In this document: in pieces, positions 989-43,519 of the stretch
Layout: the number at the start of each line of letters is the position of its first letter
Numbering within the stretch: position 1 is the stretch's first letter
Assembly (NCBI RefSeq): GCF_016786325.1
Contig: NZ_JADWYU010000099.1
Location: forward strand, 62,001 to 126,000
DNA length: 64,000 bases
Origin: Frankia nepalensis
GTDB lineage: Bacteria > Actinomycetota > Actinomycetes > Frankiales > Frankiaceae
Direction of reading: 5' to 3'
Program-made: the position numbers and the translations under genes
The notes under the pieces: model-generated
Told to the model about the DNA's origin: nothing
The model's input: the letters and a program-made list of their open reading frames with translations, nothing else
The model's database searches: none

Positions 989-1017
989 TTGACACGCCGC
1001 TAGATGCAATGCATAGT
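989..1017 (+). promoter_or_regulatory. Candidate sigma-70-type promoter overlapping operator
   Basis: TTGACA at 989-994 is a perfect -35 box. After exactly 17 bp comes CATAGT at 1012-1017, a 4/6 match to the -10 consensus. The -10 lies inside the inverted repeat at 1013-1026, so a protein bound there would block RNA polymerase. The promoter faces the amidohydrolase gene at 1199. Confidence 0.55.
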
Positions 1018-1026
1018 ATTCGCTAT
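1013..1026 (+). promoter_or_regulatory. RTAGY-N4-RCTAT operator-like element, copy 1
   Basis: ATAGT-ATTC-GCTAT, with flanking C and G extending the inverted repeat. It overlaps the candidate -10 box and lies 172 bp before the amidohydrolase start. It is one of eleven intergenic copies in the window. Confidence 0.65.
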
Positions 1027-1198
1027 GTTGACCCCGCCGTGTGGGTGCCATACCCACAACGAGGCTCGACGTGCCGCGGGCAGTGGATCGACTCGCCGCG
1101 CCGCGTCGCCTGGGGCGGGCACGCGACGGAGCGGCACCGCCCAGTGGCCGGGGTGCTTCCGTTGGTGGGATACCTTCGTCAGATAGGGCAATGACGCT

Positions 1199-2275
1199 GT
1201 GGAGCGACTGATATCCGCCGACTCGCACGTCCAGATGACGCACGAGCAGGTCAAGTACCATCTCCCTTCGCGCCTGCACGAGGCGTATGACAAGGCGTCC
1301 GGTGACTATGAAGCCAGGATGAACCGGGGCGCCGGCGCGGCGAACCGTGCCGGCGCCAAGGGAGGTCAGGCCAGCTCGGCATCCAACGCGGTATTCGGTC
1401 GTAAGGCCTACTACGACCCGGTGGCGCGCCTGGAGGACATGGACACCGATGGCGTCGAGGCCGAGGTGCTCTACAGTGAGGTCAGCGCATTTCGCTACCT
1501 GGCCTCCGTCGAGGGCGGCGTCGACGAGACCGTCCAGGCGTTCAACGATGCGCTGGCTGACTTCGCCAGCACCGACCCCAATCGGTTGATTGTCTCCTAC
1601 CAGATCCCGATCCACGATATCGATCTCGCGGTCCGCGAGGTCCAGCGGGTGGCGGCCAAGGGCGGTAAATCGCTCCAGATGCCGGTTTTCCCGAGCGAGT
1701 TCAAGCTGCCGGAGTACTTCGACGAGCGGTATGCTCCGCTGTTCTCCGCGATCGAGGAGACCGGGCTGCCGATCTGCTTCCACATCGGCCTGAACACGAA
1801 CCTGGCAGACCTGTTCATGCGGGACCCGACCCCGAACAAGGGGATCGCGGTCCCGCTGGTGCCGCTGATGACCGCCGAGGCTCTCGGTATGATCATCATG
1901 GGTGGGGTGCTTGAGCGCCACCCGCGGCTCAAGGTGGTCTTCGTGGAGCCCGGCCTGGCCTGGGTCGCCTGGTGGCTGGAGACGGTGGACGACATGGTCC
2001 GCCGGCAGGGCTACAAGTTCCCGGCGATCAAGGAAATGCCGAGCGAGTACTACTATCGCAATGTCTTCCTGACGTTCATCGACGAGAGCGTCGGCCTCCA
2101 GCGCGTGCGCGACCTGCTGGGCGTCAACAACATCATCTGGTCGACTGACTTTCCGCACCCGGTGACCAGCTGGCCCAACTCCCGGGCCGTGGTCGACAAG
2201 ATTTTCACCGGTATCCCGGCCGAGGAGCGCAAGGCCATGGTCTCCGGCAACGCGGCCCGCGTCTGGAATCTGTAA
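1199..2275 (+). CDS. Amidohydrolase family 2 (ACMSD-like TIM-barrel) metal-dependent hydrolase
   Basis: 358 residues from a GTG start. This is a cytosolic TIM-barrel metalloenzyme of the Amidohydro_2 group, which hydrolyses or decarboxylates cyclic and aromatic acids. Visible ligand motifs are the N-terminal SADSH (D8, H10), H195 in CFHIGLN, and D317 in STDFPHP. PGLAWVAWWLE and the LLGVNNIIWSTDFPHP block are typical of the actinobacterial subgroup found beside acyl-CoA genes. It is closely related to the amidohydrolase at 17482-18534: same start, the shared block MDxDGVxAEVLYSEVSAFR, and the same FPHP motif. Transcription probably starts at the promoter near 1000. The substrate cannot be predicted. 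Confidence 0.88.
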   Translation: MERLISADSHVQMTHEQVKYHLPSRLHEAYDKASGDYEARMNRGAGAANRAGAKGGQASSASNAVFGRKAYYDPVARLEDMDTDGVEAEVLYSEVSAFRYLASVEGGVDETVQAFNDALADFASTDPNRLIVSYQIPIHDIDLAVREVQRVAAKGGKSLQMPVFPSEFKLPEYFDERYAPLFSAIEETGLPICFHIGLNTNLADLFMRDPTPNKGIAVPLVPLMTAEALGMIIMGGVLERHPRLKVVFVEPGLAWVAWWLETVDDMVRRQGYKFPAIKEMPSEYYYRNVFLTFIDESVGLQRVRDLLGVNNIIWSTDFPHPVTSWPNSRAVVDKIFTGIPAEERKAMVSGNAARVWNL

Positions 2276-2728
2276 GCAGGGTCGTAGACGGCGCGGCGCG
2301 ACCTCCGCTCGCCCGGGACCGAAGGCCAGGACGGCGTTTCGGCGTTCTGAGGTCCGTAGAAGCCAGGCATGCTGAGCAGGCCCGCTGGGGCCGGCTCACA
2401 CCGCGCTGGGCCGCGTCGGGAGCGTAAGGCCAGGCGGGGACTACATCGCCATTCCGGTGCCGGGCGCGCCGCCGTCGGCCTGGACGAGTCTCCTGCCTGG
2501 CCGGCCGCGCTCCCCGGTGACCGGGTTGAGGCGTCTGGTCCAGGGCTTCCTGGTCTGGAAGCCAGGACCGGTCACCTGGCCCGCGCAGATCCTGGCGGGT
2601 TCCGCACGTATTCATCGGAACTCGGCCTGGGATGACCGGCGCCGTGTGACAGCCCGCTTCGCGGGGCCCTGGTAATCCCCACCCGAAGAGGTGCGAAGAC
2701 GACGCCGGCCTCAGCATTTCTCGGTGCC
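2276..2728. other. Intergenic region between convergent genes
   Basis: No convincing gene. It holds only short arginine/glycine-rich frames of the kind random high-GC DNA gives. The one structure seen is GGCTTCC-TGGTCT-GGAAGCC at 2544-2563, a 7-bp hairpin that could end transcription between the amidohydrolase and the solute-binding protein, which face each other. Confidence 0.5.
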
Positions 2729-4299: not shown

Positions 4300-4998
4300 G
4301 TGCGAGATCCTCTGACCCCGGCGCGTGTGGTCGCCGCGGCGACGTTGTTGCTGGAGCGGGACGGTTTCCGGCAGTTCTCCATGCGTCGGTTGGCGGCGGA
4401 GCTAGGTGTGGCGCCGACTGCGATCTACTGGCACGTCGGTAACCGGGATGAGCTTCTCGACGTCATCGCCGATGAGGCTCGGGATGTTCTCGGTAGGGTG
4501 AGTACGGTCGGACAGTCGCCGTTGGAGCGGGTCATGTCGACTGCTTCGGCACTGGTGGCGAACATCAACGAGCACCGCGGGTTGGTGGAGTTGGCCCACC
4601 AACGTGGGATCTTGCTGGCGTTGCTCGGGCCGGCTCGACAAGCCCTCGCGGCGGAGTTCGCCGCCGCCGGGCTGGGCGGGCTGGGGATCGTTGACGCGAC
4701 CAACGCGGTCGTCCAACTTGTTGGTGAGCATGTGACGTTCGAGCACTATGCGCGGAGGTGGCCTGAGCAGACGGTGGGTGACGGTTTCGACGCGAGTGCG
4801 GGTGGGGTTCTGGACGAGGCCGCTTCGGCGGCTCTCGCGCGGAGCCCGGATCGTGATCGAACCTTCGTCGTCATGCTGCGGGCCCTGGTCGCCGGGTTGT
4901 TGGCGGAGTCCGACTCCTCGGGTGGTGCCGACGGTCAGGCGGTGACAAGGACCTCGGCGGGTGATGGTCCGATCCGTGCGGCTGCCCAGGGGCGATAG
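4300..4998 (+). CDS. TetR/AcrR-family transcriptional regulator
   Basis: 232 residues from GTG 4300, chosen because the protein then begins directly with the helix-turn-helix domain (LTPARVVAAATLLLERDGF, then FSMRRLAAELGVAPTAIYWHV). The rest is an alpha-helical ligand-binding domain resembling TetR_C. Longer in-frame starts exist upstream but add only low-complexity residues. It is divergent from the solute-binding lipoprotein, so probably controls it and itself. GTAGCATTCG, identical to one half of the element at 28176, lies 4286-4295 just before the start. The last ~20 codons run through a 55-bp repeat shared with position 28316 and overlap the cupin gene on the other strand by 64 bp, so the tail may not be ancestral. 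Confidence 0.82.
   Translation: MRDPLTPARVVAAATLLLERDGFRQFSMRRLAAELGVAPTAIYWHVGNRDELLDVIADEARDVLGRVSTVGQSPLERVMSTASALVANINEHRGLVELAHQRGILLALLGPARQALAAEFAAAGLGGLGIVDATNAVVQLVGEHVTFEHYARRWPEQTVGDGFDASAGGVLDEAASAALARSPDRDRTFVVMLRALVAGLLAESDSSGGADGQAVTRTSAGDGPIRAAAQGR
4930..4984. repeat. 55-bp direct repeat, copy A
   Basis: Matches 28316-28370 in the same orientation at 52 of 55 positions. On the minus strand it encodes the final residues and the TGA stop of the cupin protein; the other copy encodes the end of an amidohydrolase. The translated tails are ARIGPSPAEVLVTA here and ARIGPSPAEVLATA there. Confidence 0.9.
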
Positions 4999-5432
4999 AT
5001 CAGGGCGACAGGCCGGACCGGCGGGGACGGACGGATCAACCGCCTCCCCAGCCCCCCCGCCATCATCTTCTCGAAGTGGTCCATCAGACTGGCGAGCGCG
5101 GCGGCCGGGTTCAGTTCCAGCACCTCGCTGGGCTCATCGTAGATAAGCGAGTGCCCGGCCGGGAAGAAGTACACGTCTCCCGCGGTGGCGACCTCGTCCG
5201 GCCAGTCGGTGCCTGGGTATACAGCACGTAGCCGCCCGCGGAAAACATATCCGTAATGCGGGCAGTTGCATACGCCGCCTGGTAGCCCCTGATATCCTGG
5301 AGTGCAGTCGACGGGGGCGGGGACGACGGTGTAGCCGACCTCCATGTCTCCCCACTGAACGGAGCGGAAGCCTGTGTGCGGCCACCGGCCGTCGCCGTTC
5401 TCGGGTAACTCCTGGGGCTTCATTACCGGCAT
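4935..5432 (-). CDS. Cupin-fold protein with transplanted C-terminal tail
   Basis: 165 residues; start ATG 5432 after TAGGAG. The middle (GYVFRGRLRAVYPGTDWPDEVATAGDVYFFPAGHSLIYDEPSEVLE) is a cupin beta-barrel: GYVF-G-L and GDVYFFPAGH are its two conserved strands, with a single clear metal-type His. Small cupins of this kind are sensors, isomerases or dioxygenases. Function is not predictable here. The last ~16 residues (AARIGPSPAEVLVTA) are the same as the end of the amidohydrolase at 28321, although the two proteins are unrelated, so the natural C-terminus was probably replaced. The gene is expressed from the minus strand, with an operator-like element 135 bp upstream. Confidence 0.75.
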   Translation of the reverse strand: MPVMKPQELPENGDGRWPHTGFRSVQWGDMEVGYTVVPAPVDCTPGYQGLPGGVCNCPHYGYVFRGRLRAVYPGTDWPDEVATAGDVYFFPAGHSLIYDEPSEVLELNPAAALASLMDHFEKMMAGGLGRRLIRPSPPVRPVALIYRPWAAARIGPSPAEVLVTA

Positions 5433-5566: not shown

Positions 5567-5580
5567 GTAGCAGCCACTAT
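5567..5580 (-). promoter_or_regulatory. RTAGY-N4-RCTAT operator-like element, copy 2
   Basis: GTAGC-AGCC-ACTAT, read on the minus strand as CATAGTGGCTGCTAC. It lies 135 bp before the cupin start at 5432 and inside decayed, non-coding sequence. Confidence 0.55.
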
Positions 5581-5682
5581 GTTGCGGAGGCAATATGACC
5601 CGGTGGTCACCGGTCTCCGCGGGTGCCGAAGCTGCCCGTCGGCGAGCGGCGCGCGGCTGGCCGTCGCCGCCTCGGGGCGGTC

Positions 5683-5800
5683 GACCCGACGCGAGGACCA
5701 CGCGCGTTCCCCGGCGGGCCGGCAGCTCACCGGTGGCTCGACCGATTCCGGCCGAGCCACCGGTGATCACGGCAGCGCGTTCGGGGAGGGACTGTATGTC
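5683..5800 (-). pseudogene. SDR N-terminal remnant
   Basis: On the minus strand this stretch reads ERAAVITGGSAGIGRATGE followed by RRGTRVVLASGR. That is the nucleotide-binding TGxxxGIG motif and second beta strand of a short-chain dehydrogenase. There is no usable start in frame: the frame is closed upstream by the stop of the SDR at 5849. Beyond the remnant the sequence is arginine-rich noise. Only about 40 of roughly 250 codons survive. Confidence 0.6.
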
Positions 5801-5848
5801 CGCCTTCTCGACTTCCGATCCGTCCGCGGCGTGCGCCGGGCGTGCGGT

Positions 5849-6631
5849 TCAGCTCGCGGTGAGACCATTGTCAATGGCGTAGACGGCGCCAGTCACCGAG
5901 CGGGCCTCGTCGGAGCCGAGGAAGGCGAACAGCGCCGCGACCTCGTCCGGCTCCGTCCTGCCGCGATGACCACCGAGCCTGCCGAGCAACCGCAGGTCGA
6001 CGTCGGCTGGGAACGTGCCCGCCGCCGCCATGGGCGTGTTCGTCGCCGCGGGCGCGATGGCGTTTACCCGCAGCGGCCGCTTGAGATACTCGACGGCAAG
6101 GGAGCGCGTCAGCGCCACCAGCCCACCCTTGCTCATCGAGTAGGCGGCCGCGTACGGCACGCCTTGCAGCCCGGCGTGCGAGCTGACGTTGACGATGTTG
6201 CCCGAGGTCGCGAGCAGGTGCGGGATGGCGGCCTGAGCAAGGAAGAACGGGGCGTCGAGGTTGACCGCCATCACCTGTCGGTAGTGCTCGACCGTGATCT
6301 CGGTGGCGTGTCCCGTCGCGTGGACGCCCGCCACGTTCCCGAGTACGTCGATCCGCCCGTACCGGTCGAGGCAGCTGGCGACGACGTCGGTGGCGGCGCC
6401 TGGATCGGTGAGGTCCGCGCGCAGCGTCGACATTCGCTCACCGGCGCTCGACGCGGTGCCGACAAGGCCGTCGCCGGATATGTCCACGCCGAGCACGGTG
6501 CCGCCCTCCGCGACGACGCGCCGGGCGATCGCCCGCCCGATGCCCGAGCCGGCACCGGTGACGATCGCGACCTTGCCGGAGAAGCGGTTCCCGACAGCGG
6601 CGGCCGCGGTCTGGCCTTTCATGACGTCCAC
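5849..6631 (-). CDS. Short-chain dehydrogenase/reductase
   Basis: 260 residues, a complete classical SDR. TGAGSGIG (25-32) binds NAD(P), GNVAG (98-102) stands where NNAG is usual, Ser151 and YSMSK (Tyr164, Lys168) form the active site. It ends with VTGAVYAIDNGLTAS, the normal family C-terminus. It would oxidise a secondary alcohol or reduce a ketone in the cytosol. It is the last of a minus-strand run (8637 to 5849) with a hypothetical protein, another SDR and a VOC protein; the gap to the VOC gene is 33 bp, so these are probably co-transcribed. Confidence 0.9.
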   Translation of the reverse strand: MDVMKGQTAAAAVGNRFSGKVAIVTGAGSGIGRAIARRVVAEGGTVLGVDISGDGLVGTASSAGERMSTLRADLTDPGAATDVVASCLDRYGRIDVLGNVAGVHATGHATEITVEHYRQVMAVNLDAPFFLAQAAIPHLLATSGNIVNVSSHAGLQGVPYAAAYSMSKGGLVALTRSLAVEYLKRPLRVNAIAPAATNTPMAAAGTFPADVDLRLLGRLGGHRGRTEPDEVAALFAFLGSDEARSVTGAVYAIDNGLTAS

Positions 6632-6664
6632 GGGCAGATCTCCCGGCGGTCCACAGCCTCGCGG

Positions 6665-7090
6665 CTAGTTGTACCGGCGCATCAGGGTCACGTTGAACCC
6701 GAACCACTGTGCCGGGTCGAGGATGAGTTGGTGGACGGCATGGGCCTGCTCGTCGGAGTTGCCCGCGCGGCTGTCGTACTCGAAGACGATGTTGTAGTTG
6801 TGCTCCGCGAGCCAGGCGCGGGCCTCGTCGATGTCGGCGATCTCCCAGACCAGCGGGCCGATCTGACCGGGGCCGCGCTCGAGCTTCGCGGCGAAGCCGC
6901 CCTGCCCGTCCACCGGGGCGACCAGCTCGATGTGCCCGTCGAAGTCGGTGGCCGACAGCACCGGTGCGTTCTGGATGGGGTGCGGCTTCGGCAGCTTGAG
7001 GCCGAAAACCTCGTTGAACTGCTCGACAGCCTTCTCGATCTCGTCTTCGCGGACGACGAGTTCGACCCGGTTGAAGCCCAGAATGTGCAC
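6665..7090 (-). CDS. VOC (glyoxalase/bleomycin-resistance fold) protein
   Basis: 141 residues. It begins MHILGFNRVELVV, the first beta strand of a vicinal-oxygen-chelate module, with HIELVAP and IGPLVWEIADIDEARAWL marking the second half. VOC proteins are metal-dependent isomerases, epimerases (for example methylmalonyl-CoA epimerase) or dioxygenases, and some only bind ligands. A decayed relative starting TWGILGFNRAESIV lies at 32966. It sits between two SDR genes on the same strand, so it probably acts on the same pathway. Confidence 0.8.
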   Translation of the reverse strand: MHILGFNRVELVVREDEIEKAVEQFNEVFGLKLPKPHPIQNAPVLSATDFDGHIELVAPVDGQGGFAAKLERGPGQIGPLVWEIADIDEARAWLAEHNYNIVFEYDSRAGNSDEQAHAVHQLILDPAQWFGFNVTLMRRYN

Positions 7091-7186
7091 TGTTCCTCCT
7101 GTGTGCTTGATGACGGATGGGTACGGGCCGGTCTTCCCAGGACGCGCCGCCGCGGCGAGACGCGCGCCGCCGCCGGACCGACGCGT

Positions 7187-7945
7187 CTACCAGGACGCGC
7201 CGCGCGCGCCGCCGCCGTTGACGGTCAGGACCTGACCGCTGACGTAGCGGGAGTCGTCCGAGGCGAGGAACGCGACCACGTCGGCGACGTCCTCCGGCTG
7301 GCAGACCCGGCCCGCGGCGGACGCGGCGCCGAACCTGCCGATCATCTCGTCGTCGAAGATCTCACGGATGCCTTCGGTGAGGACGAACCCGGGCGCCACC
7401 ACATTGCTGCGGATGCCGGCCTGGCCAAAGTTGGTCGCCGTGTACATCGACAGGGTTTCGAGCGCGGCCTTCGCGGTGCCGTAGGCGACCCGGGTCGCCG
7501 TCGCCGCGTGGGCCGCGCCCGAACTGGTGTTGATGATCGAGCCGCCGCCGGTCTTCGTCATCACCGGAATGGCATGACGGCAGCCGTAGACGGCGGCCAT
7601 CACCACGACGTCGAAGGTCGCCCGCCACATCCAGTCGGGAGTACGGACCGTGTCGGTGTCCTCGGCCGAGGAGCGGACCGCGTTGTTGTGCAGGATGTCG
7701 AGCCGGCCGAAACGCTCGACGGCGGTCTCGACGAGGGCCGCCACGGCGGCCTCGTCGGCGACGTCCGCCTGCCGCGGTACGACCGCGTCGCCGATCTGTT
7801 TGGCCACGGCCGTCACGCCGTCGAGGTCGAGGTCGGCGGCGACCACCGACGCGCCCTCGGCGGCGAGGCGGCGCGCGGTCGCGGCACCGATGCCCCGGCC
7901 GGCGCCGGTCACGATCGCGACCTTGCCCGCGAGACGGCCGCTCAT
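7187..7945 (-). CDS. Short-chain dehydrogenase/reductase
   Basis: 252 residues. TGAGRGIG (13-20), HNNAV (86-90, one change from NNAG), NTSSG with Ser141/142 and YGTAK (Tyr155, Lys159) give a complete active site. The C-terminus VSGQVLTVNGGGARGASW is normal for the family. Its ATG overlaps the stop of the upstream gene by 4 nt (ATGA), so the two are translationally coupled. Reaction: NAD(P)-linked oxidation or reduction of an alcohol/ketone; substrate unknown. Confidence 0.9.
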   Translation of the reverse strand: MSGRLAGKVAIVTGAGRGIGAATARRLAAEGASVVAADLDLDGVTAVAKQIGDAVVPRQADVADEAAVAALVETAVERFGRLDILHNNAVRSSAEDTDTVRTPDWMWRATFDVVVMAAVYGCRHAIPVMTKTGGGSIINTSSGAAHAATATRVAYGTAKAALETLSMYTATNFGQAGIRSNVVAPGFVLTEGIREIFDDEMIGRFGAASAAGRVCQPEDVADVVAFLASDDSRYVSGQVLTVNGGGARGASW

Positions 7946-8637
7946 CGCTGCACGCCGCTGTAGTTCACGATGATCGACTCAGGGTCGGCCGGGTCGGTGA
8001 AGCCGAAGCCGGTCATCCAGAGCTGGCCGTTCTGACGCCAGGTGAGGTCGAAGGCGGCGCCCCGAGCGGTGATGGTCCACTCGAATGGCCCCCAGGTCGT
8101 GCCGCCGTACCCGTCGTAGGTGATGGCGTAGGTCCCGGGGAACCCGTTCCTGGTGTCGCCGATCGCCCGGCCGGGCAGTGCTTCGTCCTGCCCGGACACC
8201 GCCGACATCATCGAGCAGTAGTAGGCGTCGATCGTGTACGGGTCGCGGATGGTGTAGCGCACGATCCCGGTGGGCGCCGCGTCGCCGGTCCAGCCGCTGA
8301 CCAGGACCGTCGAGGGCGAGTCCTCGTCGCGTAGGCCCATGCCGCGCCAGACGGCCTCGCCGCCGATGTTCGCCTCGAGGTCGACCAGCGCCGTGCCTCG
8401 GGTCTTGACGTCGAGTTCGACGCTGAGCTCCGAACCGTCGTCGAGGCGCACCGAGGCCTGGTGATGGCCGGCCGCGTCCAGCGCGCCCTCCGGGAAGTCG
8501 AGGAACGCCGTTCGCGTGCGGCTCTCGTCGGCCGGGTGGCCGGGCACCAGGTAGGTCACGGTGACTCGTTCCGGTGTGTCCGGGTTCCACGCGCATTTCG
8601 CCGCCGCGAGCGTGGCCGGCGCGATGTCGTTGGTCAT
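7942..8637 (-). CDS. Hypothetical protein, coupled to SDR
   Basis: 231 residues; I do not recognise the family. It has no signal peptide or membrane segment. The sequence is rich in beta-strand-type patterns (ASVRLDDGSELSVELDVKT, GTYAITYDGYGGTTWGPFEWTI), with many Gly, Thr and aromatic residues. This suggests an all-beta, possibly lipocalin-like or jelly-roll ligand-binding domain, which is a guess. It overlaps the SDR start by 4 nt and lies 51 bp after the amidohydrolase at 8689-9837 on the same strand, so it is part of that operon. The frame is well supported by codon use and by the coupling. Confidence 0.75.
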   Translation of the reverse strand: MTNDIAPATLAAAKCAWNPDTPERVTVTYLVPGHPADESRTRTAFLDFPEGALDAAGHHQASVRLDDGSELSVELDVKTRGTALVDLEANIGGEAVWRGMGLRDEDSPSTVLVSGWTGDAAPTGIVRYTIRDPYTIDAYYCSMMSAVSGQDEALPGRAIGDTRNGFPGTYAITYDGYGGTTWGPFEWTITARGAAFDLTWRQNGQLWMTGFGFTDPADPESIIVNYSGVQR

Positions 8638-8688: not shown

Positions 8689-9837
8689 TCAGCCCACCGG
8701 GTCGCCCATCCGGGCGAACACGTCGGTGATGTTGTCGCCGAGGAATCGTGCCCGGACATCGTCGGGCACCTTTCCGAGCTGGTTCTCGATCAAGGTGATC
8801 GGATCCGCGTTGCCCTCGCCGTGGGGGTAGTCCGACGAGAACACCATCACCTCCGGAAAGGCCGTCAGGAGTTCGGCGACGTCGAGGTCTCCCATACCGA
8901 TCAGTGGCGACGACCGCACGTTGTGCCGAACCATTTCGCCGACGGAGCGTTCGAACGGCCAGCCGACGGTCGTGTGGCTGAGCCGGTCGATCCGGGTGAC
9001 GAAGGACGGGAACCAGGAGTTCTGGATTTCCTCGCAGAGGACCGTGAGGTTCGGGTGGCGGCCGAACACGCCACCGAAGAGCATCGCGGCGAGCATCTTC
9101 TCCGGAGTGTGGTGGCGCATCGAGTTGGCGAAGGAGAAGAACCCGCCGACGCCGGTGCTCGTCGGATCGAGCCAGCCCGCATTGCCCCAACCGCCGTCGA
9201 AGTTGGCGGGGGCGTTGCCGACGTGCAGGATCGCCACCATGCCGAGACTGGTCGCGGCCGACCAGATCTTGTCCCAGTCGGGGTGGGCGGGGCTCACGCC
9301 GCCGGCGGGCTCGGCGCGGATCCAGAACGCCCGGCTCCCTCGCGCGCGCATCCACGTCAGCTCACGGACTGCCCGGTCGAGGTCGCTGAAATCGACCATG
9401 CTCACTGGGAAGAGCCGGTCGGCGCCATCTTCGAGCCGTTCGGCAAGAAAGTCGTTGCACAGCGTCACGGCGAGCGGGCGGTCGTCACCCATGTGCTCGC
9501 AGAGCGCGAAGTAGGACCCCGGGTTGACGAGTGCCTTGTCGATGCCGATCCGGTCCATCCAGCCGAGCCGCTCGGCCACGCTGGACACGACGAATCGCGG
9601 CTCCCGCTCCCCGGGAACCGTCGCCTGCTCGGACGCCGACCGGTTGGCATCCGGAAGAAACGCCTGGACGGCGTAGGCCGGCGGCCGGGAGTCCTCCGGG
9701 GTCGCCCGGTACAACTCTCCGGCGATCGCGTGGGTGATGTCCTCGTCGGTCGAGGGAAAGCGGTCGGCGAATCGCCGTAGCGGATGCTCTTGCGGCGTCA
9801 GGGAGACCTCGAGATGACAGTCCACGTCGAAAATCAT
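8689..9837 (-). CDS. Amidohydrolase family 2 metal-dependent hydrolase
   Basis: 382 residues from ATG 9837, chosen because AGGAGAAG stands just before it and the protein then opens with MIFDVDCH, the metal-binding motif at the expected place. The in-frame extension to 10497 is low-complexity. AILHVGN carries a further ligand His and VFSSDYPHGEG the distal Asp. It resembles the 28321 amidohydrolase (SDYPH form) more than the 1199/17482 pair (STDFPHP form). It heads the minus-strand run that continues into the hypothetical, SDR, VOC and SDR genes. A 19-bp sequence shared with the 28321 gene's upstream region lies 191 bp before the start. Confidence 0.88.
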   Translation of the reverse strand: MIFDVDCHLEVSLTPQEHPLRRFADRFPSTDEDITHAIAGELYRATPEDSRPPAYAVQAFLPDANRSASEQATVPGEREPRFVVSSVAERLGWMDRIGIDKALVNPGSYFALCEHMGDDRPLAVTLCNDFLAERLEDGADRLFPVSMVDFSDLDRAVRELTWMRARGSRAFWIRAEPAGGVSPAHPDWDKIWSAATSLGMVAILHVGNAPANFDGGWGNAGWLDPTSTGVGGFFSFANSMRHHTPEKMLAAMLFGGVFGRHPNLTVLCEEIQNSWFPSFVTRIDRLSHTTVGWPFERSVGEMVRHNVRSSPLIGMGDLDVAELLTAFPEVMVFSSDYPHGEGNADPITLIENQLGKVPDDVRARFLGDNITDVFARMGDPVG

Positions 9838-10046: not shown

Positions 10047-10464
10047 TCCAGGTGAAGATGGTGGTTGCTATGGAGTTGTCCGCTGTCTTGATCCGGGCCG
10101 CATGGTCCGCGCGCCGGTCGACACCGGCGATGACCGGCCTTGGCCGTATCACCTCGGTGGCTGGCGGACCATCGAGTGGCCGCCAGGTTCGAGGGCGACG
10201 GTCCGCCCACTGGCCGGACGCGCGTCGACCCGCGACGCGGCTACGGTGCGCGACTGGCCGATCATCCTGACCTGGGTGGCCAGCCAGTCGTCTTGCGTTC
10301 CCGCCGCCACTGAACCGGTCTCGGTCTCGGTCGCGGCTGGCGGTCACGGTCGCCGAGCTCATCCGCGGCCCGATCATCCGCTGCCTTCGGGCGATGCCGG
10401 GCCGTGCCCGTCGCGGACGCGGGAGACCTTCGTCGACGCGGGGGCGCGGGGTAGCGATGGAAAC

Positions 10465-10478
10465 ATAGTGAATGCTAC
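10465..10478 (+). promoter_or_regulatory. RTAGY-N4-RCTAT operator-like element, copy 3
   Basis: ATAGT-GAAT-GCTAC, preceded by AAAC. It is 265 bp before the solute-binding protein start and 628 bp before the divergent amidohydrolase. The core TAGTGAATGCTA nearly matches copies at 23814 and 28176. Confidence 0.6.
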
Positions 10479-10624: not shown

Positions 10625-10750
10625 ATGCTTGATCTGCCACGGAGCCCGTGGCCGGACGGGGCGCGTCCGCCGGCCGCGTCCGGAGGGTTGGTGGGCGCCC
10701 GCGCGTACCTCGTGGACGGGGGAGTGGACGGGGGACTGGTCTTATGCTGA
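10625..10750 (+). CDS. Small leader-like ORF (41 residues)
   Basis: AGGAG at 10613-10617 is placed 7 nt before an ATG, a better ribosome site than most genes in the window have. The 41-residue frame (MLDLPRSPWPDGARPP to VDGGVDGGLVLC) ends with a TGA that overlaps the start of the solute-binding lipoprotein at 10744. The product has no recognisable domain. It may be a translated leader that couples ribosomes into the downstream start, or a chance frame in a 5' leader. Confidence 0.35.
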   Translation: MLDLPRSPWPDGARPPAASGGLVGARAYLVDGGVDGGLVLC

Positions 10751-12105
10751 CGGCGACACGAGGTGCCCGGCGGCGCGGGCTGAGCATCGCGGCGGCCGTC
10801 CTGGCCATGGGACTGGCGGCGTGCGGCTCCTCGGACGACGCGGCCCCGCCAGACGACTCGAACGCTACGACGGCTGGCCCGTCGGCCGGACCGTCGTCCG
10901 GCTGGAGCGACGGTGGTTTCAAGGTCAACGCCGCCGACCTGAAGTGCGGGTCCAAGGCCGCCGACCCGACCCGGGGGGTCACGCCGGACAGCATCACCAT
11001 CGGCGGCCTCGCCTATCTGACCAGCCCCAACGGCAGCTCGATGGCCGGTACCGACGCCGGTGCGAAGGCGCGGTTCGAGCGGGCGAACGCCGAGGGCGGA
11101 GTACACGGCCGGAAGATCAATTTCATCGGTGTGCTGGACGACGGCCAGGACGTCGCCCGGAACACGCAGCAGGCCAGCCGGCTCGTCGAGCAGGACAAGG
11201 TCTTCGCGGTCGTGCCGCTGATGACCAGCAACACCGGCTACCTGGACACCTTCTGCGGCAACGTGGTTCCGTTCTTCGGCTGGGGATTCAACCAGGGCTA
11301 CTGCTCCACGGCGATCGGCTTCGGTATCACCGGATGCCAGTTCGCCCCCGGGAACATCGCCAACAACTCCCTGGCGTACTCGGTCAACTCCATGTTCGAG
11401 GGCGAGCCGGCGAGTCGCACCGTGGCGTTCGTCGGCGTGGACAACGATTCCGCCCGGGCTGGCGTCAAGACACTCGCCGCGTACGCGAAGGCGGGCGGCC
11501 TGGACGTGGTCTACGCAGAGAATCCCACCCCAGCCGCCGGACTGACCGACCCGACGCCGGTCGTCCAGGCCATCATGCGTTCGAACAAGGGCGCGCCACC
11601 GGACGTCGTCTATCACGTGACCGACTTCCAGTCGACGCTGAAGCTGACCACCGCGCTGAAGGCGGCCGGGTACCCGGGAAAGCAGCTCAGTCCGACATAT
11701 GACCCGCGGCTGGCTGGGCTCAAGGACCTCGACGGCGCCTACGGCAACGTGCAGTGGCTGCCCGCGATCGACGACTCGAATCCGGTGATCAAGCAGCTGC
11801 TCGCGGACCTTGCCGCGTACGCGCCTGACCAGGCACCGACCCTCTCGACCATGGCGGGCTACTACGCCGCCGACATGTTCCTCACCGCCGCGGAAAAGGT
11901 CGGACCTGACCTGACGGTGGACAAGCTGCTGTCCGTCCTCAACAACAACTACACCTATGAGCTTCCGGGCGCGCTTCCCGAGACCCGGTGGCCGCTCAAC
12001 CACGTCATCTCCGCTCCGTGCAGTTCGGTGGCGCAGATCAAGGATGGCGCCTGGCACGTCGTTGGCCCGCTCAGCTGCGGTTCCGTGATCGTCGCCAAGA
12101 AGTAG
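10744..12105 (+). CDS. ABC transporter substrate-binding lipoprotein (Leu/Ile/Val family)
   Basis: 453 residues. Lipobox LAAC (Cys27) follows a basic n-region and hydrophobic stretch, so the protein is exported and lipid-anchored. The mature domain is Peripla_BP_6-like: GVTPDSITIGGLAYLTSPNG, GGVHGRKINFIGVLDDGQD, and a second lobe with RTVAFVGVDNDSARAGVKTLAAYAKAGGLDVVYAE. No transporter membrane or ATPase gene is near, as with the protein at 2729. Start ATG 10744 was chosen because it gives a proper signal peptide; GGGGGA stands before it. A strong hairpin follows the stop. Confidence 0.88.
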   Translation: MLTATRGARRRGLSIAAAVLAMGLAACGSSDDAAPPDDSNATTAGPSAGPSSGWSDGGFKVNAADLKCGSKAADPTRGVTPDSITIGGLAYLTSPNGSSMAGTDAGAKARFERANAEGGVHGRKINFIGVLDDGQDVARNTQQASRLVEQDKVFAVVPLMTSNTGYLDTFCGNVVPFFGWGFNQGYCSTAIGFGITGCQFAPGNIANNSLAYSVNSMFEGEPASRTVAFVGVDNDSARAGVKTLAAYAKAGGLDVVYAENPTPAAGLTDPTPVVQAIMRSNKGAPPDVVYHVTDFQSTLKLTTALKAAGYPGKQLSPTYDPRLAGLKDLDGAYGNVQWLPAIDDSNPVIKQLLADLAAYAPDQAPTLSTMAGYYAADMFLTAAEKVGPDLTVDKLLSVLNNNYTYELPGALPETRWPLNHVISAPCSSVAQIKDGAWHVVGPLSCGSVIVAKK

Positions 12106-30929: not shown

Positions 30930-30943
30930 ATAGTGTTTGCTAT
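30930..30943 (+). promoter_or_regulatory. RTAGY-N4-RCTAT operator-like element, copy 8
   Basis: ATAGT-GTTT-GCTAT, followed by ATTGT; GCTATATT also reads as a -10 box. It lies 46 bp before the oxidoreductase ATG. A half copy (CATAGC) follows at 30974. Confidence 0.65.
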
Positions 30944-34331: not shown

Positions 34332-35762
34332 TCAGACCCGCTCTCGGTCCTTGTAGACGATGACGGTCTTGAGCTCGGCGTAGGCGTCCAGGCCGACCTG
34401 GCCGTTGTTCCGGCCGATGCCGCTGGACTTCACGCCCCCGAACGGGATTTTGGGATCGATCTCGGTGTGCTGGTTCACCCACGCGGTGCCGCACTCGAGG
34501 CGCGCGGCGATCTGCTCACCGTGGGCGATGTCGGAGGTCCAGACGGAACCGCACAGTCCGTACTCGGTCGCGTTGGCCTGCTCGATGGCCCACTCGACGT
34601 CGCTGAACGGGATGACCGGCAGGACCGGCCCGAACTGCTCCTCGTCCACGACCCGCACCCCGGGGCCCACACCTGTCATGATCGTCGGGGGGTAGAAGTA
34701 GCCGGACCCCTCCGCCGGGGCGCCGCCGGCGACAGCCTTCCCGCCGTGATCGAGGGCATCGGTGACGAGTTCGCTGACGCGGTCGAACTGGGGCTTGGTC
34801 GTGACCGGAATCATCGTCGCGGCCCGTTCATGGGCGATCACCGCGAGCTCGTCGACGAGTCCCTGGTAGACCGACTCGTGGGCGTACACCCGCTTGATCG
34901 CGGCACAGACCTGGCCGTGGCCGGTGAACGCGGAATCGAAGATCCGTTGCGCGACCTTCTTCGGGTCCACGTCGTCGAGCACGATCGCGGCGTCGTTGCC
35001 GCCCAGTTCGAGCAGCACGTTCTTCAGGCCCGGCGCGGCGGCGGCGGCGATCGCGCGCCCCGCCGCGATGCTGCCCGTAAAGCTGATCAACCGCGTGGTC
35101 GGGTGCGCGACCATCGCCTTTCCGACCTCGTCGTCGCCGGCCAGGATGTTGACCACGCCCGGGGGAACGAGGTCCTTCCAGATCTTCGCTACGAACAGCG
35201 TCGCCAGCGGCGTGAACGGGGAGGGCTTCGCGACGATCGTGTTCCCGACCAGCAGGGCGCTGAAGACCTTCTCGGCGAGAATGAGGATCGGCGCGTTCCA
35301 TGGGATGATCGCCGCGACGACGCCGAAGGGGGCACGAACCACCTTGACGGTGCGCTCGGCGGAGTCCTCGATGATGTCGACTCGCAGTTCCTGCTCGGCG
35401 ATGTGGTTGCCGAACCACGGCGCGGCCAACGCCTCGAGCGCGATGGACGAGGCACCCTTCTCGAGCGCGGTGATCTCCTCGATCGTCGCGTAGTTCGCCC
35501 CGATCGCGTCGGCCATCGCCTTGATCACCGCTCGACGTTCTGCCTCCGGCCGGGCCGACCAGGCCGGGAGGGCCGCGGCCGCCGCCGCCATCGCGGTGTC
35601 CACCATCTCGACCGTAGCCGCCGGGCAGCGCGCGAACTCCTCGCCGCTGGAGGGGTTGACCACCGGTATGGACTGACCACTCGTCACCAGCGTGCCGTTG
35701 ATCAGTTGGCCGAGCTCACTCACCGTTGCCTGCACGCCCATCAGGAGGTTCGCCTCATCCAT
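34332..35762 (-). CDS. NAD(P)-dependent aldehyde dehydrogenase
   Basis: 476 residues from ATG 35762; the longer frame upstream is low-complexity. Catalytic set: PWNAP (Asn156), LELGGNDA (Glu252), and Cys286 in GHGQVCAAIKR; the FTGS NAD-binding loop is present at 228-231. The usual GQxC context is intact, so it should oxidise an aldehyde to its acid. It resembles the 6-oxolauric acid/vanillin-type ALDHs of catabolic clusters. An operator-like element lies 46 bp upstream, and an SDR follows on the same strand. Confidence 0.92.
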   Translation of the reverse strand: MDEANLLMGVQATVSELGQLINGTLVTSGQSIPVVNPSSGEEFARCPAATVEMVDTAMAAAAAALPAWSARPEAERRAVIKAMADAIGANYATIEEITALEKGASSIALEALAAPWFGNHIAEQELRVDIIEDSAERTVKVVRAPFGVVAAIIPWNAPILILAEKVFSALLVGNTIVAKPSPFTPLATLFVAKIWKDLVPPGVVNILAGDDEVGKAMVAHPTTRLISFTGSIAAGRAIAAAAAPGLKNVLLELGGNDAAIVLDDVDPKKVAQRIFDSAFTGHGQVCAAIKRVYAHESVYQGLVDELAVIAHERAATMIPVTTKPQFDRVSELVTDALDHGGKAVAGGAPAEGSGYFYPPTIMTGVGPGVRVVDEEQFGPVLPVIPFSDVEWAIEQANATEYGLCGSVWTSDIAHGEQIAARLECGTAWVNQHTEIDPKIPFGGVKSSGIGRNNGQVGLDAYAELKTVIVYKDRERV

Positions 35763-35807: not shown

Positions 35808-35821
35808 ATAGTTGCCGCTAT
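35808..35821 (-). promoter_or_regulatory. RTAGY-N4-RCTAT operator-like element, copy 9
   Basis: ATAGT-TGCC-GCTAT; on the minus strand CATAGCGGCAACTAT. It is 46 bp before the aldehyde dehydrogenase start. Confidence 0.65.
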
Positions 35822-38313: not shown

Positions 38314-39566
38314 AGATCCGCACCCGTATCACGGTAATCCTCGCCGTCAGCCTGATGGCCGCCGGTTCATTCACGCTCATGGTCAACGCGATCGTGCTCA
38401 GAAACGTGCCATTCCAATCGCAGAGCTCGTTCCAGGGCGACCTTTTCGCCAGGCTGGGCATCTCGCGTGACGCGGTGGCCCGACACCTCCAGGCACATCC
38501 GGAGGACCTGTTCAGTTCGAAGTTCGATGACAAGCCCCTACCGAACGGCCAGACGGTCAACGGCGCGAGGCGAGCGCTGCAGCAGCAGCCGCTCACCGAC
38601 GCCCTCGCGGAAGCGCGCCGGTGGTCGTTGATCGGGATCCTTGTGTTTCTCGTCGGCGCGCTCGCCGCCGCATGGGGGTTGTCAGGGAGCATCCTGCGGC
38701 CCATCCGGAAGGTAACCGCCCGCGCCCGCTCGGTTTCCGCTTCGAACCTCGGGGAGCGAGTGGCGATCGGCGGCCCGAACGACGAGGTGAAGGAGCTGGC
38801 GGACACGTTCGACTCCATGCTCGACCGCATCTCCGCGTCCTTCGACGCCCAGCGTCGCTACGCCGCCCAGGTCGCTCACGAGCTGCGCACCCCGTTGGCC
38901 ACCACCCGCGCCGAGATCGGGATGCTGATCGACGACACGTCCGATGCCGAGACGCAAAAGCGGCTGCGGACCGTCCGCGACGCCGTCGACCGGGGCGAGC
39001 GCCTCGTGTCCCAGCTCCTCATTCTCTCCCGCACCGACCTGCGCGACCTGGAGACCTCGAGATTCCCGCTCGACGAACTGGTCGGCAACGTACTCGGCCG
39101 TGTCGTCGAGGGGCCGTCGTTCGCGCGGCTCCAGGTCGACGTGGACCTGCGGACCGTGGAGGTGGAGTGCGACCGCGCGCTGCTGGAGAGCCTGGTACGC
39201 AACCTGATCGACAACAGCGCACGACACAACCGGCGGGACGGCTGGGTGAACGTCACCGTCGCGCCGGGCGACGGCGACCAGGCCGCGCACCTGCGCGTCT
39301 CCAACTCGGTCGCCGACCCGGCCAACGACACGACTCCCGCCCCTGGCCGACCAGGAATCGGCCTGTCCATCGTCAACGCGGTCATCCAGGCGCACGGCGG
39401 CACCATCCACTGGAGCCGCCGACCCGGCGAAGTCACGGCCCACGTCCAGATCCCCACCCAGGCATCCGAACTCCTCCACGCCGCGACCGGGCGACCTGGC
39501 GCCGTGGCACTGCCGGTCGATGGCGAAGGACGGCGAACTCGACGCCCTTCCGGCATTGGGCTATGA
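38310..39566 (+). CDS. Sensor histidine kinase
   Basis: 418 residues. Two transmembrane segments (about 8-30 and 104-127) flank a ~70-residue extracytoplasmic sensor. HAMP region follows (LRPIRKVTARARSVSASNLGERV), then the HisKA domain with His190 (QVAHELRTPLA) and the ATPase domain with NLIDNSARHN (N box) and PGIGLSIVNAVIQAHGG (G box). It phosphorylates the response regulator that overlaps its start. The signal is unknown; the extracytoplasmic domain has no familiar motif. Its last codons overlap the convergent SDR by 6 bp. Confidence 0.92.
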   Translation: MKIRTRITVILAVSLMAAGSFTLMVNAIVLRNVPFQSQSSFQGDLFARLGISRDAVARHLQAHPEDLFSSKFDDKPLPNGQTVNGARRALQQQPLTDALAEARRWSLIGILVFLVGALAAAWGLSGSILRPIRKVTARARSVSASNLGERVAIGGPNDEVKELADTFDSMLDRISASFDAQRRYAAQVAHELRTPLATTRAEIGMLIDDTSDAETQKRLRTVRDAVDRGERLVSQLLILSRTDLRDLETSRFPLDELVGNVLGRVVEGPSFARLQVDVDLRTVEVECDRALLESLVRNLIDNSARHNRRDGWVNVTVAPGDGDQAAHLRVSNSVADPANDTTPAPGRPGIGLSIVNAVIQAHGGTIHWSRRPGEVTAHVQIPTQASELLHAATGRPGAVALPVDGEGRRTRRPSGIGL

Positions 39567-40382
39567 GCCGTTGCCGGCCATCGCGTCGGCGCTGGCCTGC
39601 GCCATGAACCGGACCAGGTCGTTCCGGGGCAGGGAGCCCATCATCGAGACGGCCTCGCGCAGCTTCTCGCCCACGACCCAGGTGGGCCCGTTGGAGAGAT
39701 TGTCGAAGGCTTCGGAGATGACGTCGCTGACGGCGTCGGCGTCGGCCGGCGGGGTGTCGAGCGCGGGGAGTCGGCCGCGGGCGTGTTCCAGCCGGCGCAG
39801 GGTCGGGGTGTCGGTCTTGCCGAGGATCAGGCCCAGGACGTCGACGCCCTTGTCGTGCAACTCGGTCCACAGCGCCTCGGCGAAGACCATGCCGAAGGAC
39901 TTCGTGGCGGCGTACGCCACCATGTTCGGGGCGCCGGCGAAACCTGCGGCGGAGCCGAGCAGGACGACGCCGCCGCGGCCGCGCGCGACCATTTCCTGTG
40001 TGTAGTGGTGGCATAGCTGCATCGGTACGGTGCAGTTGCGCTGCACCATTGCCTCGGCGGTCTCGATCGGGTTGACGAGGAAGTGCTCGAAGTTCGGGTC
40101 GGCGCCCGCGCAGTAGACCAGGAAGCCGATCTCCAGTTCCGCGGTGGCGGCGGCGATCGTAGCCGCCGCGCTCGGGGCGGCGAGGTCCACGGCGATGGCG
40201 CGGGTCTGGACGCCGCTGCGGGCACCGATGCCGGCGGCGACCTCGTCGAGGAGGGCCTGTCGCCGGGCGAGCAGCGCGACGTTGACGCCGCGTTCGGCGA
40301 GCGCCTCGGCGAACGCCGCTCCGACGCCGTCGGAGGCGCCCGCCACCAGCCCCCACGGTCCGTAACGGTCGGCGAATGTCAT
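39561..40382 (-). CDS. Short-chain dehydrogenase/reductase (DltE/YqjQ-like subgroup)
   Basis: 273 residues. AGASDGVG (14-21) is the nucleotide-binding motif, YCAGADPN (90-97) replaces NNAG, Ser144 (LLGSAAGF) and YAATK (Tyr157, Lys161) form the active site. The group with GPWGLVAGASDGVGAAFAEALAERGVNVALLARR is common beside lipid genes. The C-terminal part lacks the usual VDGG end and is longer (LSNGPTWVVGEKLREAVSMM), as in that subgroup. Operator-like element 188 bp upstream. Confidence 0.88.
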   Translation of the reverse strand: MTFADRYGPWGLVAGASDGVGAAFAEALAERGVNVALLARRQALLDEVAAGIGARSGVQTRAIAVDLAAPSAAATIAAATAELEIGFLVYCAGADPNFEHFLVNPIETAEAMVQRNCTVPMQLCHHYTQEMVARGRGGVVLLGSAAGFAGAPNMVAYAATKSFGMVFAEALWTELHDKGVDVLGLILGKTDTPTLRRLEHARGRLPALDTPPADADAVSDVISEAFDNLSNGPTWVVGEKLREAVSMMGSLPRNDLVRFMAQASADAMAGNGS

Positions 40383-40569: not shown

Positions 40570-40583
40570 GTAGTAGCTGCTAT
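40570..40583 (-). promoter_or_regulatory. RTAGY-N4-RCTAT operator-like element, copy 10
   Basis: GTAGT-AGCT-GCTAT; the minus strand reads CATAGCAGCTACTAC. It is 188 bp before the SDR start at 40382 and 6 bp from the 20-bp palindrome. Confidence 0.6.
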
Positions 40584-42150: not shown

Positions 42151-42213
42151 CCCGGCCGCCCGCCGCCGGTCAGCCCCAGATGAATCCGTTGCTGGTGGGC
42201 ACGCTGGTCATGG

Positions 42214-43395
42214 CTACGCCGCACGGCCAGCGAACGGCAGATGGGCGACGCCGCGGACGTTCGTCGAGACGTGCCGCACGGCGCGGTCGATGTCGACCTG
42301 GAAGTCGGCGTAGCGCCGAAAGATCTCCTCGAACGCCACCTTGATCTCCACGCGGGCGAGATGGGCGCCGAGGCAGCGGTGAATGCCGAAACCGAAGAAC
42401 AGGGTGGACAGGTGCTCGGCACGGCGCATGTCGAACACGTCCGGGCTCTCATAGACACGTTCGTCACGCAGCGCCGAGCCCGTCACCAGCATGACCCGGT
42501 CGCCGGCCGGGATGGTCACGTCGTGCAGGGTGACGTCCTTGGTGGTCTGGCGGCCCTGCAGATGTGACGGCGGGTCGAAGCGCAGCGTCTCCTCGACCGC
42601 CTTGGTCACCAGACCAGGATCGGCGCGCAGCAGCGCGGCCTGGTCCGGGAACCGGGTCATCGCCATGATCCCGTTCGGGATGCCCTTGGCGACCGTCTCA
42701 TGGCCGGCGAAACCCATCTCGAGGAACCGGAAGGCGATTTCGTCGTCCTCCATGCGGCGGGTGCCGCCGTCCTCGTCGTCGGTGACCTCGGTGCTCATGA
42801 TCATGCTAATGATGTCGTCCCGCGGGTTCGCCCGCCGTTCGGCCACCAGCTGCAGGTACAGCTCCAGCAGTCCGGCCCCGGCGAGCGCCACGTCCTCCGG
42901 GTCGGCGTCGGGACCGCGCGCGGCGAGTCGGTCGGAGAGGTCGGACACCGTGGACCGGTGCTCGGCGGGGATACCGAGCAGCTCGCTGATCACGTCGAGC
43001 GGCAGCTTGATGGAGAAGTCGCCGACCAGGTCGAACTCGTCGCGGTCGCGCTGGGCGTCGAGCAGTTCCCGCGTCCGTTCGCGGATGAACGGCTCCAGTT
43101 CCATGATCCGCCGGGGCGTGAACACCTTGCTGATGATTTTGCGGTGCCAGCGGTGCGACGGCGGGTCCTTCACGATGAGCATCGCGAAGTCCTTCTCGGT
43201 GCCCTCGATCGTGACCCCGCCGGTGCTGGAGTAGGTGCCCCAGTCGTTGTGCGCGGCCAGTACGTCGGCGTGCCGCGTCAGCGCCCAGAACCGCAGTTCC
43301 TCGTTGCGGTAGACCGGCGCCTCCTCCCGCATCCGTGCGTAGACCGGGTACGGATCCGCGTAGGTCGCCGGACTGTACGGGTTGAACTCGATCAT
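42214..43395 (-). CDS. Cytochrome P450 monooxygenase
   Basis: 393 residues, a soluble bacterial P450. The heme-binding loop FFGFGIHRCLGAHLA has the axial ligand Cys341. The I-helix carries GHET (231-234) in place of the common AGxxT, and VEETLRFDPP is the K-helix ExxR. CYP family cannot be named safely, but the sequence style (SSTGGVTIEGTEKDFAMLIVKDPPSHRWHRKIISKVFTPRRI) is that of actinobacterial CYPs near steroid and terpenoid genes. It needs a ferredoxin and reductase, neither of which lies in the window. Operator-like element 111 bp upstream. Confidence 0.92.
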   Translation of the reverse strand: MIEFNPYSPATYADPYPVYARMREEAPVYRNEELRFWALTRHADVLAAHNDWGTYSSTGGVTIEGTEKDFAMLIVKDPPSHRWHRKIISKVFTPRRIMELEPFIRERTRELLDAQRDRDEFDLVGDFSIKLPLDVISELLGIPAEHRSTVSDLSDRLAARGPDADPEDVALAGAGLLELYLQLVAERRANPRDDIISMIMSTEVTDDEDGGTRRMEDDEIAFRFLEMGFAGHETVAKGIPNGIMAMTRFPDQAALLRADPGLVTKAVEETLRFDPPSHLQGRQTTKDVTLHDVTIPAGDRVMLVTGSALRDERVYESPDVFDMRRAEHLSTLFFGFGIHRCLGAHLARVEIKVAFEEIFRRYADFQVDIDRAVRHVSTNVRGVAHLPFAGRAA

Positions 43396-43505
43396 CTAGT
43401 CCTCCGCTTCGGTGCGCGCCGGCGCCGGCGCCGGGGCCGGGCTCACGGCGAGCCCGCCCTCCCCATGAGCTCGGCGGGCACCGAGTCCGGTATGGCATCA
43501 ACCAC

Positions 43506-43519
43506 ATAGCAGACGCTAT
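43506..43519 (-). promoter_or_regulatory. RTAGY-N4-RCTAT operator-like element, copy 11
   Basis: ATAGC-AGAC-GCTAT, a perfect 5-bp inverted repeat, 111 bp before the P450 start. It is the last copy seen; none was found between 43.6 and 64 kb. Confidence 0.65.

Follow-up and report, generated by a model that had tools for sequence, protein, structure and literature searches.

KstR and KstR2 control large regulons for steroid catabolism in actinobacteria through one palindrome (TNNAACNNGTTNNA and ANCAAGNNCTTGNT respectively), and DUF35 and lipid-transfer genes are among their targets. Here we describe a comparable arrangement in a 64-kb stretch of DNA from Frankia nepalensis (positions 62001-126000 of contig C327, in a 10.7 Mb genome of 398 contigs, G000 in our set). 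In this stretch, referred to below as the window, the palindrome RTAGY-N4-RCTAT recurs upstream of catabolic and transport genes, and a TetR-family regulator is encoded among them. Regulators are named by their position in the window, and this one is TetR 22794. In all likelihood RTAGY-N4-RCTAT is a genuine operator, that of a small clade of TetR repressors including the well-supported candidate TetR 22794, and it would control a regulon for CoA-dependent catabolism. The likeness to KstR and KstR2 lies in a large catabolic TetR regulon, one palindrome and the DUF35 and lipid-transfer genes; the operators differ. TetR 22794 was rejected as a KstR because it scores 22.4 bits against the NCBIfam KstR model, which has a cut-off of 280.

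Three further TetR-family systems were compared with the locus. DarR of mycobacteria and Rhodococcus occupies the 14-bp palindrome ATACT-N4-AGTAT and binds DNA as a dimer of dimers, in which a pseudo-palindromic site takes up the second one and both fit within 20 bp; its targets are darR, Ms5347 and cspA (PMC10636190). The Frankia palindrome has the same 5-N4-5 architecture, and DarR structures are among the Foldseek matches of the TetR 22794 model. However, these structural matches are only 17-18% identical, the half-site is ATAGY and not ATACT (all ten copies follow RTAGY-N4-RCTAT), the genes concerned here are catabolic, and the two palindromes proposed below to seat a pair of dimers have their centres 14 bp apart, whereas the DarR dimers are described as lying within 20 bp.

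BkaR (Rv2506) is an autoregulated mycobacterial TetR repressor of branched-chain keto-acid genes, including an operon that starts with accD1. It has palindromic sites in several promoters, with the core GTTA(N)T(N4)A(N)TAAC, and a regulon of 10 genes in M. smegmatis and at least 12 predicted genes in M. tuberculosis (PMC3920632). The two cases share a catabolic TetR protein with palindromes in several promoters, and a BkaR structure is a Foldseek match of TetR 22794 at 24% identity, but the operator core of BkaR is a different one, and the sites found here form an island-wide set.

In Pseudomonas, AtuR represses the atu cluster for acyclic terpene utilisation, which contains AtuA and carboxylase genes, and its repeats are AGCAAGCGCTTGG / CCAAGCGCTTGCT, two per promoter with a 40-bp spacer (PMC9973270). 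A TetR protein with an AtuA/carboxylase cluster and two repeats per promoter recall the present system, but the AtuR repeats are unlike RTAGY-N4-RCTAT. TetR 22794 was not identified with AtuR because the operator CCAAGCGCTTGCT differs and because the TetR that adjoins AtuA on contig C386 of F. nepalensis is another protein; the latter has a weak match to TetR_C_24, below cut-off. Nor were the AtuR, DarR and BkaR operators accepted as the same motif, since their published sequences differ from RTAGY-N4-RCTAT; DarR and BkaR were retained as examples of a shared architecture. A mycobacterial survey of TetR operators presents its motifs as logos (PMC4482099). A literature search with the operator string and its degenerate variants found no paper, and one on Frankia and Pseudofrankia TetR proteins, operators, regulons and terpenes gave no such regulon in the titles of the matches listed.

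Distribution and context of the palindrome

On the two strands of the window, RTAGY-N4-RCTAT gave 16 strand matches at 10 distinct places, because six of the copies are fully symmetric. The expected mean was 0.09 and none of 100 dinucleotide shuffles reached 16; since the GC content of the window is 70%, the AT-rich arms are unlikely to occur by chance. The ten intact copies listed in a preliminary description of this DNA were recovered exactly (Table 1). A split eleventh copy, placed there at 29574, where ATAG and CTAT stand 13 bases too far apart, does mark a site, which is better described as a full copy with one mismatch, ATCGCACTCGCTAT, with a stray ATAG half-site 13 bp upstream. The list as a whole holds, with the addition of a further degenerate copy, ATGGTGGTTGCTAT.

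Genes were called with a simple caller of our own, retrained, and all 10 intact copies fall outside the called genes, as the preliminary description had claimed. It had also claimed that each copy precedes a catabolic or transport gene, and Pfam agrees for the neighbours named. Amidohydro_2 was found at 1235, 8689, 17482 and 28321, Peripla_BP_6 at 2729 and 10744, OB_ChsH2_C (DUF35) at 18727 and a thiolase of the lipid-transfer type at 19005. CoA_transf_3 matched the products of 20265 and 23989, each some 800 residues long, and the remaining matches were an acyl-CoA dehydrogenase (26931), an MDR (31085), an aldehyde dehydrogenase (34332), short-chain dehydrogenases (33315 and 39561) and a P450 (42214). 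The open reading frame (ORF) 4935-5432(-) beside copy 2 was missed by our caller and has no Pfam match; its translation reads as that of a cupin-like protein. The two family III CoA-transferases (20265-22664 and 23989-26490) are fused proteins, each matched by the model in two stretches, and are 46% identical to each other.

Over the whole F. nepalensis genome the excess was only modest, with 41 strand matches compared with 29 for the reversed pattern. All 14 fully symmetric ATAGY-N4-RCTAT sites lie on contigs C327, C31, C386 and C340. The signal is in the clustering, full palindromy and promoter position of the sites, not in their genome-wide total. Elsewhere in the genome there are eight asymmetric GTAG-type matches, all of them outside the genes called in pieces of 7-20 kb. 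One 14-mer, GTAGCCGCAACTAT, is present in three copies outside the islands (C133:19984, C352:24503 and C352:41307) and is perhaps a small dispersed repeat.

A matrix of 18 columns built from the intact sites was run over 448 kb of site-bearing regions, 79% of which is coding. At a threshold of at least 12 bits it gave 56 intergenic matches and 1 coding match, with 1 match in the reversed sequence; because the regions had been fetched for their sites, the ratio of intergenic to coding matches is the fair figure, and not their density. Ten of the 57, two of which overlap each other, were weaker sites unused in training, and all ten are intergenic. Classified by gene orientation, 23 of 47 sites lie between divergent genes, 23 are one-way (upstream of a gene and downstream of a codirectional one) and 1 is at a contig end, so that none of the 46 classifiable sites lies between convergent genes. 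For one of the 47 (G005 20324), which falls in the terminal part of a called ORF, the class was assigned from the genes on its outer sides, and the one-way class of copy 2 presupposes that the cupin-like ORF is a gene. The near-duplicate genomes G003 (of G001) and G028 (of G019) were excluded from the matrix and orientation counts, and G003 also from the offset scan described below. The preliminary description had named an equal frequency of the pattern in coding DNA as refuting its reading; the matrix and orientation counts favour that reading.

Within the genus, clusters of sites occur in G001 (6 sites), G003 (5) and G005 (10). In G007 there are 4 sites, spread over three contigs, with a distance of 23 bp between two of the sites, and G002, G004 and G006 have scattered matches only (2, 4 and 4 sites) and no clusters. 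In 27 genomes of the family outside the genus, a relaxed pattern gave 0-12 matches per strand, each count below its reversed control, in a search that did not look for clusters. Among 11 control loci (L064-L074) the pattern was absent from 10, and the eleventh, from Hyella (GC content 39%), had 3 matches. A Mycolicibacterium locus (L063) with 34% identity over part of the TetR has a single match 6 kb off, and was not counted as support.

The candidate regulator and its relatives

TetR 22794 matches TetR_N (PF00440) with an E value of 1.5e-10 and 41.1 bits, against a cut-off of 24. Its structure model has nine helices in a TetR-like all-helical fold (pLDDT 84.6). Foldseek listed 50 matches to it in the PDB, with E values of 3e-6 to 1e-4 and TM-scores of 0.44-0.62 (query length), all of which we take to be TetR-type regulators, in part from their descriptions.

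Relatives of TetR 22794 at E <= 1e-30 were found in 8 of 35 Frankiaceae genomes, with three copies each in F. nepalensis and G005; the others are G001, G003, G007, G019, G026 and G028. At the same threshold no relative was found in G002, G004 or G006, the congeners without site clusters. Five regulators of the window were sought by tblastn in the motif neighbourhoods of 8 genomes, defined as 10 kb on either side of a site, and TetR 22794 alone was present in all eight. In a wider comparison, 175 proteins from the F. nepalensis regions, G019 and G026 were run by tblastn against the DNA within 10 kb of a site (40% identity, 60% length). Only four reached the full number of 8 genomes, and each of them belongs to the TetR 22794 family; the divergent member encoded on C31 reached 7, and the most widespread of the other proteins 5.

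The site nearest to a tetR copy lies at a distance of 67-1836 bp in each of the 8 genomes, one copy being taken per genome and three in F. nepalensis. In the window, copy 5 is 355 bp upstream of tetR and is shared with the divergent CoA-transferase gene. In EI5c (L062), a site heads a two-gene operon in which the second gene is a tetR of the 22794 type and the first encodes a thioesterase-like protein with a 45% match in G007. A search with a stricter motif, independent of the TetR, had already met tetR-adjacent sites in G019, G026 and G028, which are outside the genus; it gave matches in 9 genomes, 5 of which have this TetR.

When 393 genomes of the class were searched, with 7 candidates scored per genome, close relatives of TetR 22794 were confined to the 8 Frankiaceae genomes. 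Ten further genomes had more distant relatives (E 1e-25 to 1e-29), and nine of the ten belong to a genus of another family, g10, which we take from its gene order to be mycobacteria. Just before the tetR start, seven of these nine genomes have ATAG-N6-CTAT and two have ATAG-N6-TTAT, with one mismatch. The six central bases vary among these sites, and ATAG and TATGTTATAAAGTCAA are constant. In seven of the nine genomes the extended pattern ATAGNNNNNNCTATGTTA has exactly one occurrence, just before the tetR start, and in the other two it is absent. These tetR promoters are independent evidence, from comparison of sequences, that regulators of the TetR 22794 kind would read ATAG-N6-CTAT, and very probably TetR 22794 is the reader of RTAGY-N4-RCTAT.

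In one of the g10 genomes, G112, the tetR gene is divergent from a 407-residue ORF. The recognition helix of the G112 TetR, TWGVIQYHFGDR, is also found in another TetR of G001 (4018423-4019040, L049), about 2.9 kb from the site at 4015518.

The copies of the TetR within one genome could each have a sub-regulon of their own, with a shared operator code and crosstalk between them. Besides the three copies in F. nepalensis (on C327, C386 and C31), each at most 0.36 kb from a site, and the three in G005, this is favoured by the sites on C31, which have other flanks and adjoin the most divergent of the F. nepalensis copies (38% identity to the window protein). Yet WGAIQ in the recognition helix is invariant in ten aligned copies, the preceding residue being S in nine and T in one, and G001, G003 and G007 serve their sites with one copy each. 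We consider such a division among paralogues to have somewhat less than an even chance; it is a refinement of the reading of RTAGY-N4-RCTAT as the operator of the TetR 22794 clade and does not contradict it. A partial, degraded paralogue, with two TGA stops within the match (profile 37-165), is found at C305:19870-20253 of F. nepalensis.

Predicted mode of action and regulon

At catabolic promoters a TetR dimer would occupy the 14-bp palindrome, which in the clearest cases covers the -10 box or the -35/-10 spacer. Transcription would be blocked until the dimer takes up an intermediate of the pathway, probably the free acid or an acyl-CoA. The preliminary description had placed copy 1 on the -10 of a TTGACA-N17 promoter, and TTGACA-N17-CATAGT does overlap this copy; no general register of this kind emerges. 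On the minus strand, TTGCCT-N18-TACGGT occurs at copy 2 and TTGCAT-N17-TATCGT at 35808. The form TTGCAT-N17-TANNNT is found at sites 35808, G005 41630 and G001 5107841, and TCGACA-N17-TATAAT is overlapped by the sites at C340 61764 of F. nepalensis and at G005 20324. In the distant tetR promoters a -10-like stretch lies at the palindrome. A fixed promoter register, with the -35 at -13/-12 and the -10 at +11, fits single cases only, and was not adopted because no -35 emerges in 23 one-way sites.

Repression is the likely mode, since some of the sites are in the core promoter and most studied TetR proteins are repressors (PMC3511530). Activation by TetR 22794, wholly or at some sites, would accord with the want of a fixed register and with those sites that lie 200-500 bp from the called start codon. 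It is made improbable by the same habit of the family, by the good -10 boxes overlapped at the TTGCAT-N17-TANNNT and TCGACA-N17-TATAAT sites given above and by the -10-like stretch in the distant tetR promoters.

When the sites were aligned, weak conservation on one side appeared as a second palindrome, TGGY-N4-RCCA, with the same 4-N4-4 design as the TAGY-N4-RCTA of the main one. Centre offsets of 4-56 bp were scanned in 44 sites, and offsets of 24-56 gave a baseline of 3.71 of 8 positions (standard deviation 0.22); the pattern had been picked after viewing the alignment, and the offset scan is its sole control. The strongest offset was 14 bp (mean 5.27 of 8, z 7.2), at which 9 of the 44 sites are perfect, some of these nine being orthologous to one another. 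Offset 7, which overlaps the main site in part, was second (z 4.9), and at this offset the count never exceeded 6 of 8. The natural reading of TGGY-N4-RCCA exactly 14 bp from the operator is that two dimers would sit side by side, and at about a fifth of the sites this weaker palindrome may seat the second of them.

A broader proposal may be made tentatively, as one that could well be right but falls short of an even chance. An undescribed clade of TetR proteins would read ATAG-N6-CTAT in Frankiaceae and in a second family; a local switch would have grown island-wide in Frankiaceae, where tandem palindromes 14 bp apart would seat two dimers and up to three paralogues in one genome would share the code. 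The composite operator and the code common to the paralogues are the parts that most merit testing, and paralogues with one operator code would offer a usable case of a local TetR switch turning global.

The regulon would comprise uptake by branched-chain-type binding proteins, oxidation by P450, aldehyde dehydrogenase and short-chain dehydrogenase, CoA activation by the family III CoA-transferases, and beta-oxidation-like steps by acyl-CoA dehydrogenase and the DUF35/lipid-transfer thiolase. Other genes downstream of sites encode an enoyl-CoA hydratase, a class II aldolase, a thiolase, a beta-ketoacyl synthase III-like protein, an acyl-CoA thioesterase and a branched-chain-type ABC ATPase. 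Genes for AtuA, a biotin carboxylase/carboxyltransferase pair and a mycothiol-isomerase-like protein are linked in relatives and on C386, and in G001 a site stands at the head of the AtuA operon (4008157); in relatives the regulon would touch or adjoin an AtuA/biotin-dependent carboxylase operon. At C386:22185-29766 (L026), AtuA, biotin carboxylase, carboxyltransferase and a separate TetR are encoded together, an operon that is kept near sites in G001 and G005 and that suggests isoprenoid-type catabolism in Frankiaceae.

Ten linked enzymes were compared with NCBIfam at an E value of 1e-20. Scores above cut-off were limited to two of them, the thiolase (TIGR01930) and the class II aldolase (PRK06208), and AtuA and a carboxylesterase had no match at this E value; as NCBIfam gives no firm enzyme identity, no firm substrate is proposed. 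The AtuA/biotin-dependent carboxylase operon near the sites points to acids with methyl branches, isoprenoid-like or other, as substrates. The linked genes would suit a pathway that takes up and activates such an acid and degrades it by beta-oxidation-like steps, and we give this substrate class a chance well below even.

If the operator is as proposed, one repressor would switch scattered degradation and uptake genes jointly. The sites would place in a single candidate pathway the fused CoA-transferases, the amidohydrolases, the DUF35-thiolase and perhaps also the AtuA carboxylase, and because they group its genes they would help to identify the substrate. For a large catabolic island of plant-associated actinobacteria that are not model organisms, they also provide a list of targets and a regulator-operator pair that can be tested.

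Counter-evidence, other alternatives and accompanying features

Several observations weigh against TetR 22794 and RTAGY-N4-RCTAT as a regulator-operator pair. The comparison of eight genomes is partly circular, because for G019, G026 and G028 it used regions chosen for the presence of the TetR. Among the genomes with the stricter motif, G021 and G025 gave no TetR in the search at E <= 1e-30, and G045 and G050 were outside that search. In G001, G003, G019 and G028 the site closest to tetR is 1.6-1.8 kb away, outside the promoter of tetR itself; the 10 kb around the TetR copy on C220 of G005 (L061) contain no match to the pattern and only a degenerate site of 12.4 bits; and G094, the tenth genome with a distant TetR, has no such site. 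The eight outlying asymmetric GTAG-type matches in F. nepalensis also fall outside called genes, and the four sites on C31 have neither the AC flank nor the second palindrome. Alignment of the 23 one-way sites by gene direction revealed no fixed -35/-10 register beyond the operator. An AtuA operon with a site at its head was found in G001 only, with none of at least 8 bits in F. nepalensis or G005. In addition, the simple gene caller missed at least two reading frames of the window, TetR 4300 and the cupin-like ORF near copy 2.

The palindrome might instead be the operator of TetR 12499, TetR 4300, GntR 46114 or response regulator 37390, with TetR 22794 a mere neighbour. All of these are encoded in the same island, and TetR 12499 and TetR 4300 have close orthologues in G001. 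None of the four, however, occurs in more than 3 of the 8 motif neighbourhoods: TetR 4300 is present in 3, TetR 12499 is close in 2 (F. nepalensis and G001, plus a partial 35% match in G005), GntR 46114 is in 2, the second at 36%, and response regulator 37390 is in 1. Moreover, the palindrome recurs in another family in the promoter of a gene for a distant relative of TetR 22794. We regard a different reader as very improbable; the earlier reading, a catabolic regulon with a repressor at its operator, is supported, and the choice between TetR 4300 and TetR 22794 is narrowed to the latter. TetR 12499 was rejected because among other genomes its close orthologue is in G001 only. An origin of the copies from a mobile element or a dispersed repeat, without regulatory function, as the identical GTAGCCGCAACTAT of three outlying matches might hint, is scarcely credible when the N4 centre and flanks vary among copies with both arms kept, and when the sites lie upstream of genes and never between convergent ones.

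Table 1. Operator copies, second palindromes and the candidate regulator in the window
Feature	Position	Strand	Context or score
Operator copy 1	1013-1026		Upstream of amidohydrolase 1235-2275(+)
Operator copy 2	5567-5580		135 bp upstream of cupin-like ORF 4935-5432(-)
Degenerate operator ATGGTGGTTGCTAT	10058-10071		17.7 bits (matrix); upstream of amidohydrolase 8689-9837(-)
Operator copy 3	10465-10478		Upstream of solute-binding protein 10744-12105(+)
Operator copy 4	18586-18599		Between amidohydrolase 17482-18534(-) and DUF35 gene 18727-19008(+)
TetR-family regulator, proposed operator-binding protein	22794-23459	-	TetR_N; present in 8/8 motif neighbourhoods
Second palindrome TGGTGACCACAA	23801-23812		7/8 positions; centre 14 bp from copy 5
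Operator copy 5	23814-23827		Between TetR gene 22794-23459(-) and CoA-transferase 23989-26490(+)
Operator copy 6	28176-28189		Upstream of acyl-CoA dehydrogenase 26931-28106(-)
Degenerate operator ATCGCACTCGCTAT	29587-29600		15.3 bits (matrix), one mismatch; upstream of amidohydrolase 28321-29481(-)
Second palindrome TGGTTATTGCCA	30917-30928		8/8 positions; centre 14 bp from copy 30930
Operator copy	30930-30943		Upstream of MDR-type dehydrogenase 31085-31963(+)
Operator copy	35808-35821		Upstream of aldehyde dehydrogenase 34332-35762(-)
Operator copy	40570-40583		Upstream of short-chain dehydrogenase 39561-40382(-)
Second palindrome TGGCATCAACCA	43493-43504		8/8 positions; centre 14 bp from copy 43506
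Operator copy	43506-43519		Upstream of cytochrome P450 42214-43395(-)

The window also contains an open frame of 794 residues (5579-7963, plus strand), which is without a Pfam match and runs antisense to a short-chain dehydrogenase/glyoxalase operon at 5849-8637(-). It is probably a shadow ORF of GC-rich DNA and no gene.

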